From positions 1 through 32,476 of the forward strand of contig JAJZYW010000005.1 of the NCBI GenBank assembly GCA_021797895.1: a stretch of DNA of 32,476 nucleotides, given 5' to 3'. The translations under genes were made by a program, and so were the position numbers. The stretch comes from Microcaldota archaeon (GTDB taxonomy: Archaea > Micrarchaeota > Micrarchaeia > Micrarchaeales > Micrarchaeaceae). A model generated the notes under the pieces. That model had not been told where the DNA came from and made no database searches. It worked only from the letters and a program-made list of their open reading frames with translations. Of this stretch, positions 20,652 to 25,912 are shown one piece after another. The first letter of the stretch is position 1. Every line of letters begins with the position of its first letter.

Positions 20652-22046
20652 ATGGAGACCAGGGGATATGCCAGGAGCGGAAGGCTTCGCAGCAGGGAGG
20701 AAGCTGCGATGCTCAGCATATTCGACGGGATACATCAGCTTACTGCAATGGAGGCTGCGGAACGGTACCATAGGAGTTACGGTCTGCGTATTGATGCTGC
20801 GGATGCCAAGCGCATACTGGACGGGCTTTCTGAAGATGGACTCATAAGCAATACGCTCGACAACGGCAGCACGTTTACGCAGAAACCCGGATACAAGATT
20901 CGCTGGGAGGGGATGCGCGAATCTGCCCGCCTGAACCCTGCGGAAAAGGCAATCGGTATGGTGGACAGCCTGTGCTACTCACTGTCGTCAGACCTCAAGG
21001 CGCTAGCAATACTTGCTATGGATCCCGGGAAAAAGTATTCCTCGTCCGAGCTCAATGAGTGCGTGTCATCGAGGCTTGGCGGACAGGTATCAATACCGCA
21101 GCGGGCGCTCATGAACTATTTCTGCAGGTGGAATGACGCGGTCGTGCCAGTGAAGGTTATACCTGAGCATAGCATAAAGGGCAGCGTCAACTGGGTATCG
21201 GCGCAGAAGGAGGCATGGAGCCAGCGCACGTACGACCCCATAATAATAGGTGCAATAAGGGCTGCCGTGGGCCTTTCTAAGGAATTTGGAAGGACTGTGA
21301 CTATTGCAGAGATATTCGGCCCTTCCTCAAGCCCAGGAGGGCATACAAAGGGGGCATCTGTTTATGCAATAATAAACACGCTCGCAAACGCAGAAAGGGA
21401 TCACACTTACAACGGCTTGAGGAGCGAAATAATGAGCAGGTTCGGCATAGATGTAAGGCATGAAATACGCATGCTCTCGAAGATTGGTGCAATAGACTAC
21501 AGCTCCACATATGTGAGAATGGGAACCGGCTCGTCCAGCAGGACAAGCTACATCAGGAAGTCTCCAATAGACGTAGAGAAAGCGATGGACAAGGTCGTAG
21601 AAATCAAACCTTATCTAAGCAAGGGCATGCGGGCTGTAAGATCCACTGTTGAAATTGTTGCTGCACTGGAGGGAAGATTTGAGCCTAAAGAGGTTGCATC
21701 ACGCTCAGGCTGCGGCTTGGATTCGGTCAGAAAGGTCATGGCTGCTATGGCAAAGATGGGGCTGCTCGCCAAATGGGAAGGCGGAAGCAACGAGAAAAGC
21801 ATAGTCAGGGCGAACAGAGTTACACATTACATGTGGAGGGAAATCTTCAGCCCGATTGGTGAAATGGCATGGTTCATGCATACGTACGGCACCGGGATGT
21901 ACTCAAGAGCTGCCGAGTCTGTCGCTTGGGCGGGAAGGCAGGGTGAATCCTCTTTAGATGGCGAGCTTGCCGAGAATGTGGTAAGGCTGGTTGGCGCCTA
22001 CATCCGCAACAAGAAGGAGGAGATGGGGCTTGCGCGCAGGGATTGA
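20652..22046 (+). CDS. Multi-winged-helix orphan, possible transcription regulator
   Basis: A 464-residue soluble protein with several stretches that look like winged helix-turn-helix units: residues about 14-86 (EEAAMLSIFDGIHQLTAMEA, then ILDGLSEDGLIS), 115-143, 257-291 (FGIDVRHEIRMLSKIGAIDY) and 331-378 (FEPKEVASRSGCGLDSVRKV, then MAKMGLLAKWEG). This pattern of helix, short helix and wing ending in 'xxGLI/LxKW' suggests nucleic acid binding. I recognise no named family. Its own promoter has the CTGG-extended TATA box and an adjacent inverted repeat, so autoregulation is possible. Other readings, such as a replication or RNA-binding protein, remain open. Confidence 0.55.
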   Translation: METRGYARSGRLRSREEAAMLSIFDGIHQLTAMEAAERYHRSYGLRIDAADAKRILDGLSEDGLISNTLDNGSTFTQKPGYKIRWEGMRESARLNPAEKAIGMVDSLCYSLSSDLKALAILAMDPGKKYSSSELNECVSSRLGGQVSIPQRALMNYFCRWNDAVVPVKVIPEHSIKGSVNWVSAQKEAWSQRTYDPIIIGAIRAAVGLSKEFGRTVTIAEIFGPSSSPGGHTKGASVYAIINTLANAERDHTYNGLRSEIMSRFGIDVRHEIRMLSKIGAIDYSSTYVRMGTGSSSRTSYIRKSPIDVEKAMDKVVEIKPYLSKGMRAVRSTVEIVAALEGRFEPKEVASRSGCGLDSVRKVMAAMAKMGLLAKWEGGSNEKSIVRANRVTHYMWREIFSPIGEMAWFMHTYGTGMYSRAAESVAWAGRQGESSLDGELAENVVRLVGAYIRNKKEEMGLARRD

Positions 22047-22648: not shown

Positions 22649-24121
22649 TCATGCAAGGTTCTTCCTCACAGTAGGAATGCTTGTCCTGCCGCTGTCATAT
22701 TCCACATACACGTTCTTCAGCTTGAGATACTCCCTTATGCCGTGCACGCTTCCCTCTCCTGCCTGGCCCGTCATCCTGAACCCTGTATGGTAGCCTTGCG
22801 AGGCTTCAGGCCCGGGCATGTTTATGTAGAGCTCGCCAAACCTTATGCGCTCAGAAGCTTCCTGGGCAAGAGCAAGGTCCTTTGTAAACAGGTACGAAGC
22901 CAGCCCGTACCGCGAGTCGTTTGCCTTCTCGAAAAGCTCCTCTTTCGAAGAAACACTCAATGCGCCTATGGCTGGGCCAAAGACCTCTTCCTGGAAAAGA
23001 CGCGACTTCTGCCCTGCACCCGTAATGACTGCTGGGCGGATGTAGTAGCCGGAGGAGTATGCTTGCGGCATATTGGGTCGCTCTTCCCCAGCAAGGAGCT
23101 TGCCGCCACCCTCTATTGCCTCGCTTATCGTTTCCTTAAGATTGGCGAGAGCGCCCGAATTTATCAGCGGACCCATGTCAGCATTTCGCGGATTGCCAAG
23201 GCGCAGCCTCTTGGTTATGGCGGCGAACCTCTTCACGAACGAATCGTATATGTCCTCGTGGACATACAGCCTCTCGGCAGCTATGCAGGACTGTCCCGCA
23301 TTCCAGTATTTTGCCCATAGGAGTGTGCGCATTGCGTTGCCAATATCCGCATCCTTCCAGACCATGAATGGCGCCTTTCCGCCGAGCTCTAGAACCAGCT
23401 TGGCCATATTTGATGAGGCCTTCTCCATTATGCGCTGCCCTGTTGATGTTGAGCCAGTCATTGTAACGAGGGAAACGCGCCTGTCGGAGACGATTGCGTC
23501 GCCTATTTCGGAGCCCTTCCCTGCAACCATGTTGAGCACACCCTTCGGCACGCCTGCACGCTCAAACTTTTTCACTATCCATTCTGCGCTGCCTGGAGTG
23601 TCGCTGCTCGGCTTGAGCACAACGGTATTGCCTGTGAGCAAAGCCGGCGCGAGCTTTCTAGCTACCATCGCCGCGGGAAAGTTCCAGGGAGTTATCGCAG
23701 CCACGACGCCGCGAGGCACCAGGTACTGCATTATCTTCCTCGAAGGGCTCTCCCCCTCAACTATGTCCCCGGTTATCTTCCTGGCAAATTCCGCATAGTA
23801 CTGAATCTGGTCTATAGTGCCGTCGACCTCCTCCTTTGCTTCTATGGGTATCTTGCCGTTCTCACTTGCCAGTATATGCTCTAGAGCCGCCCTGTCCCTT
23901 TCTATAAGTTCCTTTGCCCTGTAGAGCAGCTTGGATCTTTCTGCCGAAGTCTTACGGCTCCATCCATCAAATGCTGACTCTGCCGCACCTATCGCGGCCT
24001 TTACGTCGTCCTTCGACGCTCCTTTGAACGAATACATCAGCTTCCCGTCTACAGGCGAGTATTTGCTAATCCTGCCTGAGCTGCTCCCTTCCACCCATTT
24101 CCCGCCTATGTACATCTTCAT
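22649..24121 (-). CDS. D-glyceraldehyde dehydrogenase (NADP+), Thermoplasma type
   Basis: A 490-residue aldehyde dehydrogenase. The active-site Asn147 is in TPWNFPA, Lys170 in VVLKPSSD, Glu246 in LELGGKAPF and Cys279 in NAGQSCIAA. From memory, long parts such as EEVDGTIDQIQYYAEFARK, ARKLAPALLTGNTVVLKPSS and GPEASQGYHTGFRMTGQAGE match the Thermoplasma and Picrophilus glyceraldehyde dehydrogenases closely. These oxidise glyceraldehyde to glycerate in the non-phosphorylative Entner-Doudoroff pathway. Other aldehydes (lactaldehyde, succinate semialdehyde) cannot be excluded. ATG 24121 has AGGTG at the right distance upstream, so the frame further upstream is not used. It is divergent from the IlvD/Edd dehydratase around a repeat-rich control region. 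Confidence 0.88.
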   Translation of the reverse strand: MKMYIGGKWVEGSSSGRISKYSPVDGKLMYSFKGASKDDVKAAIGAAESAFDGWSRKTSAERSKLLYRAKELIERDRAALEHILASENGKIPIEAKEEVDGTIDQIQYYAEFARKITGDIVEGESPSRKIMQYLVPRGVVAAITPWNFPAAMVARKLAPALLTGNTVVLKPSSDTPGSAEWIVKKFERAGVPKGVLNMVAGKGSEIGDAIVSDRRVSLVTMTGSTSTGQRIMEKASSNMAKLVLELGGKAPFMVWKDADIGNAMRTLLWAKYWNAGQSCIAAERLYVHEDIYDSFVKRFAAITKRLRLGNPRNADMGPLINSGALANLKETISEAIEGGGKLLAGEERPNMPQAYSSGYYIRPAVITGAGQKSRLFQEEVFGPAIGALSVSSKEELFEKANDSRYGLASYLFTKDLALAQEASERIRFGELYINMPGPEASQGYHTGFRMTGQAGEGSVHGIREYLKLKNVYVEYDSGRTSIPTVRKNLA

Positions 24122-24132
24122 CTCCACACCTG

Positions 24133-24173
24133 CGTTTATCACAATAAACGTTTGGGCGTTAAAACGTATATAG
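24133..24173. promoter_or_regulatory. Divergent control region with repeated CGTTT/AAACG half-sites
   Basis: CGTTTATCACAATAAACG at 24133-24150 is a perfect inverted repeat with seven-base arms and a four-base spacer. ACGTTT at 24148-24153 and AAACGT at 24162-24167 form a second, overlapping one. GTTTTAAC (minus, about 24165-24158) is the probable TATA box of the dehydrogenase, so the first repeat covers its start site. GTATATAG at 24166-24173 is the probable TATA box of the dehydratase. A shared regulator is likely. Confidence 0.5.
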
Positions 24174-24229
24174 TTTAGCTGAAGATATTGATATGCCGCA
24201 GCATGTTCTGCCTTGCGGGAGGTAATATT

Positions 24230-25912
24230 TTGGAAGAGAGATACCTGAAATCTAGATCTGACGCAGTTTACAAAGGCCCCTACAAGGCGCCCAACAGGGC
24301 ATACATGAAGGCGATGGGCCTCTCTGACGAGGACTTATCAAAGCCCATTGTCGGGGTTGGCGCAGCATGGAGCGAGGCTGGACCCTGCAACCTCCACGCA
24401 ATGATGCTTGGGAGGAAGGCGAAGGAGGGCGTGGCATACATGCACGGCACACCGAGGATGTTCACTACCCCACTTGTTATAGATGGAGTTGCGATGGGCT
24501 CTGAGGGAATGAAGTACTCGCTGGTAAGCAGGGAGATAATAGCGGATACGGTTGAGCTAAGCGTCAACGCCCATGGCTACGACGCTTTTGTTGGCATATC
24601 CGGATGCGACAAGACGACTCCGGGCATGCTGATGGCAGCAGCCAGGATGAACATACCTTCGATAGTGCTTTATGGCGGCACTACGCTGAACGGGCACCTG
24701 AATGGGAAGGTAATAACCATGGAAAGCGTTTTCGAGGCTGTAGGCTCTTTTGCAGCAAAGAGGCTCAGCGAGGAGGAGCTCAAGGAATTGGAGAACAACG
24801 CGATACCTACGGAAGGAACATGCGCCGGGCTGTTCACGGCGAACACGATGGGAACAATGGCGGAGGTGCTCGGAATGGCCCTGCCAGGAAGCTCAGCTCC
24901 CCCTGCTGTCGAGGGAATAAAGTCTGATTACGCGTTCGAATCAGGAAAGGCGATCATGGCTCTGCTTGAAAATGGGATAAAGCCCAGGGATATAATGACG
25001 CGCGAGGCGTTCGAGAATGCTATAACAGTGCTTATGGCAATGGGGGGATCTACCAACGTTGTACTCCATCTTCCTGCGATAGCTGCTGAAGCAGGAATAA
25101 AGCTGACGCTTGATGACTTTGACGAGGTAGGAAGGAAGGTGCCCGAGATAGCGAACATGAAGCCTGGAGGGGAGCACACTATGGAGGACCTGAGCAGGAT
25201 AGGGGGAGTCCCGCTCGTGATAAAGAAACTTCTCGATGTCGGGATGCTGGATGGGAACACCATGACGGTTACTGGAAAGACTTTGAAAGAGAACATAAGC
25301 TCGATGAACATAAGGGAAGCCGCGAACGACGTGATATCGGAAGTGTCGAAGCCATATCGCGGCTCAGGCGGACTTAGGATTCTAAAGGGAAGCCTGGCTC
25401 CAGAAGGTGCAGTGATAAAAGTCGCTGCTGCGAAGATGCTCAAGCACAGCGGCCCTGCAAAGGTCTTCGATTCTGAGGAGGATGCGTTCAGCGGAGTGGC
25501 TGGCGGCAAAGTTGCTGAGGGCGACGTAGTCGTGATAAGGTATGAAGGGCCGAAGGGAGGACCTGGCATGAGGGAGATGCTCTCCGTTACCGCAGAAATA
25601 ATTGGCAAAGGCTTGGGAGAGAGCGTAGCGCTCGTGACTGACGGAAGATTCTCCGGAGCCACAAGGGGTCTTATGATAGGGCATGTTGCCCCGGAGGCGT
25701 TTGTCGGAGGGCCTATTGCCTTGGTCAAGGACGGCGACATGATAAGCGTTGACTGTGAAAAGGGCACGCTTGAGCTTTCTGTTGAGCGCGATGAGATTGA
25801 GCGCAGGAAGCTGGAGTGGAAGCAGCCGGAGCCAAAGCACAGGAGAGGACTTCTTGCACAGTATGCAAAGCTTGTTACAAGCGCGCCTGAGGGCGCCATT
25901 CTGGCACCCTGA
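24230..25912 (+). CDS. IlvD/Edd family dehydratase (dihydroxy-acid or sugar-acid dehydratase)
   Basis: A 560-residue Fe-S dehydratase. The three cluster Cys residues are in AGPCNLHA (C53), GISGCDKTTPG (C126) and EGTCAGLFTANTMG (C198), and ALVTDGRFSGATRG near the end is the family signature. IlvD makes branched-chain 2-keto acids. Archaeal members also dehydrate gluconate, and divergence from glyceraldehyde dehydrogenase favours a sugar-acid role in the non-phosphorylative Entner-Doudoroff pathway. That is inference; no other branched-chain genes are in the window. The start is TTG 24230, because GGGAGGT at 24217-24223 sits six bases before it and the length then matches the family. The frame upstream to TTG 24188 looks unused. 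Confidence 0.88.
   Translation: MEERYLKSRSDAVYKGPYKAPNRAYMKAMGLSDEDLSKPIVGVGAAWSEAGPCNLHAMMLGRKAKEGVAYMHGTPRMFTTPLVIDGVAMGSEGMKYSLVSREIIADTVELSVNAHGYDAFVGISGCDKTTPGMLMAAARMNIPSIVLYGGTTLNGHLNGKVITMESVFEAVGSFAAKRLSEEELKELENNAIPTEGTCAGLFTANTMGTMAEVLGMALPGSSAPPAVEGIKSDYAFESGKAIMALLENGIKPRDIMTREAFENAITVLMAMGGSTNVVLHLPAIAAEAGIKLTLDDFDEVGRKVPEIANMKPGGEHTMEDLSRIGGVPLVIKKLLDVGMLDGNTMTVTGKTLKENISSMNIREAANDVISEVSKPYRGSGGLRILKGSLAPEGAVIKVAAAKMLKHSGPAKVFDSEEDAFSGVAGGKVAEGDVVVIRYEGPKGGPGMREMLSVTAEIIGKGLGESVALVTDGRFSGATRGLMIGHVAPEAFVGGPIALVKDGDMISVDCEKGTLELSVERDEIERRKLEWKQPEPKHRRGLLAQYAKLVTSAPEGAILAP

Follow-up and report, generated by a model that had tools for sequence, protein, structure and literature searches.

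The region between positions 24122 and 24229 of the window, as we call the whole 32,476-nucleotide stretch of Micrarchaeal DNA analysed here, is probably a compact divergent promoter shared by two genes that form a metabolic unit, those for a D-glyceraldehyde dehydrogenase (GADH) and a dehydratase of the IlvD/DHAD family (IlvD). The best explanation we can offer for the whole is that the pair leads from glyceraldehyde via glycerate to pyruvate and is controlled by a tandem-palindrome operator; we hold it tentatively, at not far short of an even chance. The interest of the finding comes from IlvD, which looks orphaned from branched-chain synthesis, more than from the operator. The window is contig C5 of a MAG of 710,730 bp in 32 contigs (77% complete), in which 745 ORFs were called with a simple hexamer model. 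For comparison a family set of 85 genomes was used, i.e. the source genome (G000) and 84 others. The relative G032 is closed (one contig of 989,838 bp).

The enzyme pair and its Entner-Doudoroff company

GADH (490 aa, 22649-24121 on the reverse strand, likely start ATG 24121) exceeded the cut-off of the equivalog model NF040792 (816.3 bits compared to 760), and its best solved relatives are the D-glyceraldehyde dehydrogenase chains 5izd, 5j77 and 5m4x. IlvD (560 aa, 24230-25912 on the forward strand, likely start TTG 24230) passed the cut-offs of the dihydroxy-acid dehydratase models TIGR00110 (720 compared to 618.15) and PRK00911 (811.3 compared to 644). Among named genomes its five best matches all belong to Micrarchaeota, one being the closed chromosome of Ca. 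Micrarchaeum sp. A_DKE, which we take to be the Ca. Micrarchaeum harzensis of PMC8975820.

The source genome has genes assigned to the non-phosphorylative Entner-Doudoroff (ED) pathway for glucose dehydrogenase, gluconate dehydratase, KDG aldolase and GADH, two of them with scores below the model cut-offs. The glucose dehydrogenase (C15:9829) reached 85.5 with PF16912 (cut-off 34.9). The gluconate dehydratase, a member of the enolase superfamily (C4:12804), scored 568 with NF040790 (cut-off 750), and the KDG-aldolase-like protein (C15:12715) scored 108 with NF040954 (cut-off 390), its top solved relative being a KDG aldolase structure. GADH family, gluconate dehydratase, KDG-aldolase-like and glucose-dehydrogenase-like proteins are thus like those of the non-phosphorylative ED pathway of thermoacidophilic archaea and Ca. 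Mancarchaeum Mia14, as excerpts of PMC5498576 present it. Unlike that pathway, an orphan IlvD occurs together with ED genes in 8 of the 85 family genomes, and neither PF13660 nor enolase was found here. A glucose dehydrogenase query from G019 gave no match below 1e-5 in G032. In the source genome the genes for glucose dehydrogenase and the KDG-aldolase-like protein form an operon with a gene for a GH15 trehalase-like hydrolase (C15:9829-13596), which suggests that a glucoside may feed the pathway.

Within the family, IlvD was found in these eight genomes (in G002 only as a part at a contig edge), with C-terminal relics in two more, gluconate dehydratase in 12 and GADH in 10. All eight IlvD-bearing genomes contain gluconate dehydratase and seven contain GADH (hypergeometric 1e-8 and 2e-7, values uncorrected for relatedness); no GADH was found in G095, whose IlvD lies at a contig end. 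Ten IlvD loci have a visible neighbour (source, G002, G006, G019, G032, G051, G095, G102, G107:C78 and L035, the ORF of the last identified by reading; the fragment G107:C118 is excluded). An ED gene adjoins IlvD in every one of them, gluconate dehydratase in 8 and GADH in 3, with both present in G006. In G006 and G051 GADH and IlvD stand in tandem, their longest ORFs overlapping by 4 bp (counted from the first ATG, they lie a few bases apart). The sequence-only reading had fitted both enzymes into a non-phosphorylative ED route, and this fit holds, GADH by its model score and IlvD by its co-occurrence with ED genes and not with branched-chain genes.

The two genes were also lost together. Blastn of G001:C21 against the window revealed that a stretch of 3,022 bp (22722-25743), covering most of GADH, the repeat array described below and about 505 codons of IlvD, is missing in this sister genome. 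To the left and right of the gap the contig (L204, 5250-6300) is colinear with the window, and it retains 3' relics of about 24 codons of GADH and 56 of IlvD. Because these 3'-end scars remain, we regard the difference as a loss in G001 and not as a gain in the source. A further IlvD relic, with a large internal deletion, lies on G007:C1 (L206, 5640-6100) in a genome that has neither gluconate dehydratase nor GADH. The G002 copy of the window locus ends at a contig break after the methyltransferase gene. G002 also has an ED cluster on contig C90, whose gluconate dehydratase shares 92% identity with the G032 enzyme, and a second copy on C26 that is 94% identical to the source gene on C4; this suggests that C90 is either a foreign contig in the bin or a recent transfer. 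The IlvD of G002 likewise stands on a contig of foreign appearance for this bin.

The substrate of IlvD

GADH would oxidise the D-glyceraldehyde delivered by 2-keto-3-deoxygluconate aldolase to D-glycerate. IlvD would then most likely convert D-glycerate to pyruvate by removal of water, a single step in the place of glycerate kinase, enolase and pyruvate kinase. Glucose could in this way yield two pyruvates without phosphorylated intermediates. This D-glycerate reaction, which we infer for IlvD, agrees with the equipment of the genome: since an enzyme of the enolase superfamily is already present for gluconate, the substrate of IlvD need not be gluconate, and GADH plus IlvD make sense as a path from glyceraldehyde via glycerate to pyruvate.

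Enzymes for the conventional onward route were searched in 13 genomes, five of which are at least 90% complete. Enolase was found in none of them (controls 14 of 14). PF13660, presumably the class-I glycerate kinase, was likewise found in none of the 13, a result to be read with the positive controls, of which only 4 of 14 were recovered. With E. coli pyruvate kinase and GlxK as queries, tblastn, run with no positive control, gave nothing below E=1 in the source genome or G032. According to excerpts of PMC8975820 and PMC5498576, the ED pathway of the Micrarchaeota studied there leads as far as glycerate, with no onward enzyme found. Excerpts of PMC5864196 describe an incomplete but syntenic ED pathway together with a glycolytic pathway in Micrarchaeota, and by the inference given in excerpts of PMC12892359 the ancestor of Micrarchaeota had enolase, while other lineages have complete glycolysis. 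By these partial accounts the enolase and glycerate gap belongs to the group studied here and is not phylum-wide. For the missing glycerate step, the orphan IlvD is a candidate in those lineages that have it.

A chemical precedent exists. In vitro, enzymes of the IlvD type form pyruvate from D-glycerate by dehydration (excerpts of PMC6692406 and PMC9314677); the latter calls the reaction "non-natural" and gives activities of 0.02 U/mg for SsDHAD and 0.96 U/mg for FtDHAD, low values that count against the glycerate proposal. A synthetic kinase-free cascade from glucose to pyruvate built on the Saccharolobus DHAD comprises, in the excerpted descriptions (PMC6692406, PMC6982167, PMC9314677), the same steps as proposed here, i.e. 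glucose dehydrogenase, gluconate dehydration, KDG aldolase, glyceraldehyde dehydrogenase and glycerate dehydration by an IlvD-type enzyme. That cascade works in vitro, whereas the proposed Micrarchaeal version would be natural, with a separate gluconate dehydratase. In the open-access literature no paper contained both 'Micrarchaeota' and 'dihydroxy-acid dehydratase', and the titles and abstract beginnings of the papers listed revealed no natural glycerate-dehydration pathway. To our knowledge, the shortcut from glycerate to pyruvate is otherwise restricted to test-tube enzyme cascades.

It is possible, though we consider it rather doubtful as a complete proposal, that some Micrarchaeota perform a natural glycolysis free of kinases and enolase, in which a Thermoplasmata-related IlvD acts as physiological D-glycerate dehydratase and the pair is co-controlled here from one TATA box by a tandem-palindrome operator. 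If true, this would be the first natural pathway with direct glycerate dehydration that we know of and would provide a host-associated archaeon with pyruvate without kinase steps. It would also give cell-free biotechnology a source of evolved glycerate dehydratases; according to excerpts of PMC6692406 and PMC9314677, the dehydration of glycerate is the bottleneck step there.

About as likely as the glycerate-dehydratase reading is that IlvD is a second, promiscuous sugar-acid dehydratase of the Saccharolobus kind, converting gluconate, xylonate or other sugar acids to 2-keto-3-deoxy acids for the same aldolase; we give this a substantial chance, somewhat below even. In the excerpted text of PMC9314677 the promiscuous Saccharolobus-type class of acid dehydratases is characterised by GCDKTT, GTCSG with Phe261, SGAT and the lack of a C-terminal His. 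IlvD, with GCDKTT, GTCAGLF, SGAT and the C-terminus PEGAILAP, agrees with this class in GCDKTT, in GTCxG with Phe at the equivalent of position 261 (counted from the Cys of GTC), in SGAT and in the missing His. The sugar-acid-specific class, by the same excerpt, carries a C-terminal His, and its absence from IlvD speaks against the sugar-acid reading. The motif agreement is suggestive only, because SGAT also occurs in two Thermoplasmata IlvD relatives (GCDKTS, GSCGGLY, SGAT) and because in the enzymes of G006, G051, G095 and L035 the position-261 equivalent is Tyr and not Phe. Furthermore, the active-site motifs do not separate the use of glycerate from that of gluconate or branched-chain substrates. 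Gene neighbourhood favours the sugar-acid dehydratase and counts against glycerate, since gluconate dehydratase adjoins IlvD more often (8 of 10 loci) than GADH does (3 of 10). Conversely, a second gluconate-type enzyme would find the enolase-superfamily dehydratase already in place in all eight IlvD-bearing family genomes. G011, G034 and G100 possess GADH and gluconate dehydratase but no IlvD, and neither PF13660 nor enolase was found in any of the three; glycerate may therefore have another fate. The 77% completeness of the source genome counts against the glycerate proposal as well.

That IlvD is an ordinary branched-chain dihydroxy-acid dehydratase working on host-derived intermediates is very unlikely: it does pass the TIGR00110 and PRK00911 cut-offs, and in a tree of 25 rows the eight IlvD of Micrarchaeota fall into one clade (96/95), which joins the two from Thermoplasmata (100/99), whose genes stand, as read from the translations, beside ORFs resembling acetolactate synthase and KARI (ilvB/ilvN/ilvC), but ilvC (KARI, TIGR00465) and ilvB (acetolactate synthase, TIGR00118) exceeded their cut-offs in none of nine genomes (controls 14 of 14), IlvD is missing along with GADH in G001, and in the family it occurs only in genomes with gluconate dehydratase, save for the G007 relic. 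The nine genomes of this search include six with IlvD; five of the nine are at least 90% complete and the source is 77% complete. Fragments of ilvC and ilvB below the cut-offs were seen in three and two of the nine genomes, respectively.

The tandem palindrome

As the sequence-only reading had claimed, four CGTTT/AAACG half-sites between the two genes make up two overlapping inverted repeats. All four are exact (CGTTT at 24133, AAACG at 24146, CGTTT at 24149, AAACG at 24162), and the array spans 34 bp (24133-24166). It is composed of two 18-bp palindromes, P1 (CGTTTAT-N4-ATAAACG, 24133-24150, 7-bp arms and a 4-bp loop) and P2 (CGTTT-N8-AAACG, 24149-24166, with 6-bp arms if read as ACGTTT/AAACGT with the flanking A/T). 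P1 and P2 follow each other in a 16-bp register and have 2 bp in common. The symmetry axis of the whole array lies in a central AAACGTTT (24146-24153).

The unit CGTTT-N8-AAACG exists in exactly two copies in the 710,730 bp, both within the array, and six further intergenic sites match it with one mismatch. Two of these six, 21 bp apart, lie at G000:C13:22448-22486 in a long gap between called genes. A Markov-3 simulation of the intergenic set gave 0.1 exact copies per genome and not a single segment with two copies in 200 runs. With correction for the search (any 5-mer half-site, loops of 0 to 12, 400 simulated genomes), some tandem palindrome appeared in 77 of the 400, one with an arm sum of at least 13, the value of the array, in 13, and one which in addition had G/C in the half-site in 3. 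The real genome contains four segments with tandem palindromes, namely the array, two AT-only segments, one of which is stronger than the array, and one built on AGCTA. Since four segments are more than the model expects, the model may understate effects of chance or base composition. The rarity of the array is good but not overwhelming evidence of selection.

We have to consider that the repeats are no operator, that AAACG is simply the flank on the BRE side of the TATA box at this promoter, and that the palindromes arose by chance. This has a real possibility of being correct, though clearly short of even. In the IlvD promoter TATATA follows AAACG directly, at two other AAACGTTT sites the sequence is GAAACGTTTAAATAT, a BRE with a TATA box, and the frequency of tandem palindromes in simulated and real genome just given fits chance as well. 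The array also lacks conservation: in relatives, the array was found neither in 14 gene-start stretches from 10 loci nor in two Thermoplasmata ilvD upstream stretches, none of which contained more than two half-sites. On the other hand, a palindrome pair as strong as this one was rare in the simulations, its unit occurs nowhere else in the genome, and intergenic DNA as a whole shows no enrichment of AAACG/CGTTT (140 copies compared to a mean of 132.8 under a Markov-1 model). The lack of enrichment led us to reject AAACG as a general BRE, yet the two AAACGTTT sites with BRE and TATA remain.

AAACGTTT occurs nine times in the genome, seven times in intergenic DNA (three on C3, one each on C4, C5, C16 and C29), and its intergenic share is the highest among 42 palindromes that contain two G/C and occur five times or more. 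The other six intergenic cores lie away from the located ED genes, as judged by reading the translations of their neighbours. A regulon of another kind around these cores is possible.

The sequence-only reading had further proposed a sugar-acid-responsive switch, with the same repeats to be expected before other genes of the pathway. No sequence evidence supports this. The stretch C15:9700-9840 at the glucose dehydrogenase/aldolase operon contains no half-site and C4:13983-14090, before gluconate dehydratase, a single AAACG, and no PF13660 glycerate kinase gene was found for the comparison; with the full array absent elsewhere in the source genome, we rejected a sugar regulon. Among the 84 other family genomes the array pattern, allowing up to two mismatches, matched in one, before a surface-protein-like gene. 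Its reversed control pattern matched in two, so we treat the single match as chance. G032 has one CGTTT-N8-AAACG, situated away from its ED cluster. The earlier interpretation as a whole is partly supported: its pathway guess was right in direction, and its regulon claim fails its own test. At loci of the A_DKE type, the divergent promoter between aldolase and gluconate dehydratase bears another palindrome, CAGTTGCAACTG (L033:1711-1722, L003:3908-3919) or, in L032, CAGTTAACTG (about 345-356).

Promoter layout and candidate regulators

A BRE/TATA-type promoter model fitted to 415 upstream regions identified TATATA at 24167-24172 as the best TATA-type match for both divergent genes, with scores of 5.03 on the forward and 5.01 on the reverse strand, compared to a median of best scores of 4.92. 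One TATA box may thus serve GADH and IlvD. A second, weaker TATA-like site for GADH begins at 24153 within the array. Likely ribosome-binding sites are GGGAGGT (24217-24223, forward strand) for TTG 24230 and AGGTG (24127-24131, reverse strand) for ATG 24121. GGTG-type 6-mers peak upstream of the called gene starts, partly by construction, since the gene caller rewarded such motifs in choosing starts.

Transcription is roughly predicted to start about 25 bp from TATA, near 24193 on the forward and 24145 on the reverse strand. For GADH the array is located directly downstream of TATATA and covers this roughly predicted start and the leader. For IlvD it is located directly upstream, fills the BRE position and abuts TATATA. 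Hence the earlier claim that it covers the start site of one gene and the TATA box of the other is right for the predicted GADH transcription start and wrong for the box. The likely GADH start codon, ATG 24121, lies 11 bp outside the array; only the alternative GTG 24142 would lie inside.

An operator role of the tandem palindrome is plausible. The 34 bp most likely form an operator for two regulator dimers side by side. A bound regulator, positioned between TATA and the predicted start, would block initiation at GADH; at the IlvD promoter, where it would touch the edge of the BRE, it could either block TFB or recruit it, as proteins of the TrmB type can from there. For TrmB-family proteins, excerpts of PMC4158304 give a rule of position: a site downstream of BRE/TATA represses, one upstream activates. 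By this rule, a single bound protein could repress both genes, or it could repress GADH and activate IlvD. Protein binding to the array, and with it the sign of regulation, are presumed throughout. TrmB/Tgr-type dual regulators and the Thermococcales glycolytic motif, as excerpted from PMC4158304, are alike in that a palindromic site follows the TATA box of one gene and precedes the BRE of the other, these being the positions for repression and activation. They differ in motif, the Thermococcales TATCAC-N5-GTGATA having no copy in the source genome, and in that the array has no linked TrmB protein.

Several proteins came into view as possible regulators. The neighbouring gene at 20652-22046 of the window encodes a protein of 464 aa that matched no NCBIfam model and exceeded no Pfam cut-off; it reads like repeated winged helices and has counterparts of 69-72% identity in both other genomes of the genus. 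It is unlikely to be a dedicated regulator of the pair, as it is kept in G001, which is without GADH and IlvD. In L032-L034 the second ORF after IlvD encodes a regulator with HTH_3 and CBS domains (e.g. L033:5847-6383, by domain search of the L033 copy); tblastn gave no match to this regulator below 1e-3 in the source genome. At G000:C29:11188-11204 (L158), three half-sites, AAACGTTTCAAGCGTTT, lie upstream of a small winged-helix-like ORF with a sub-threshold HTH_5 match, possibly a regulator with a related site.
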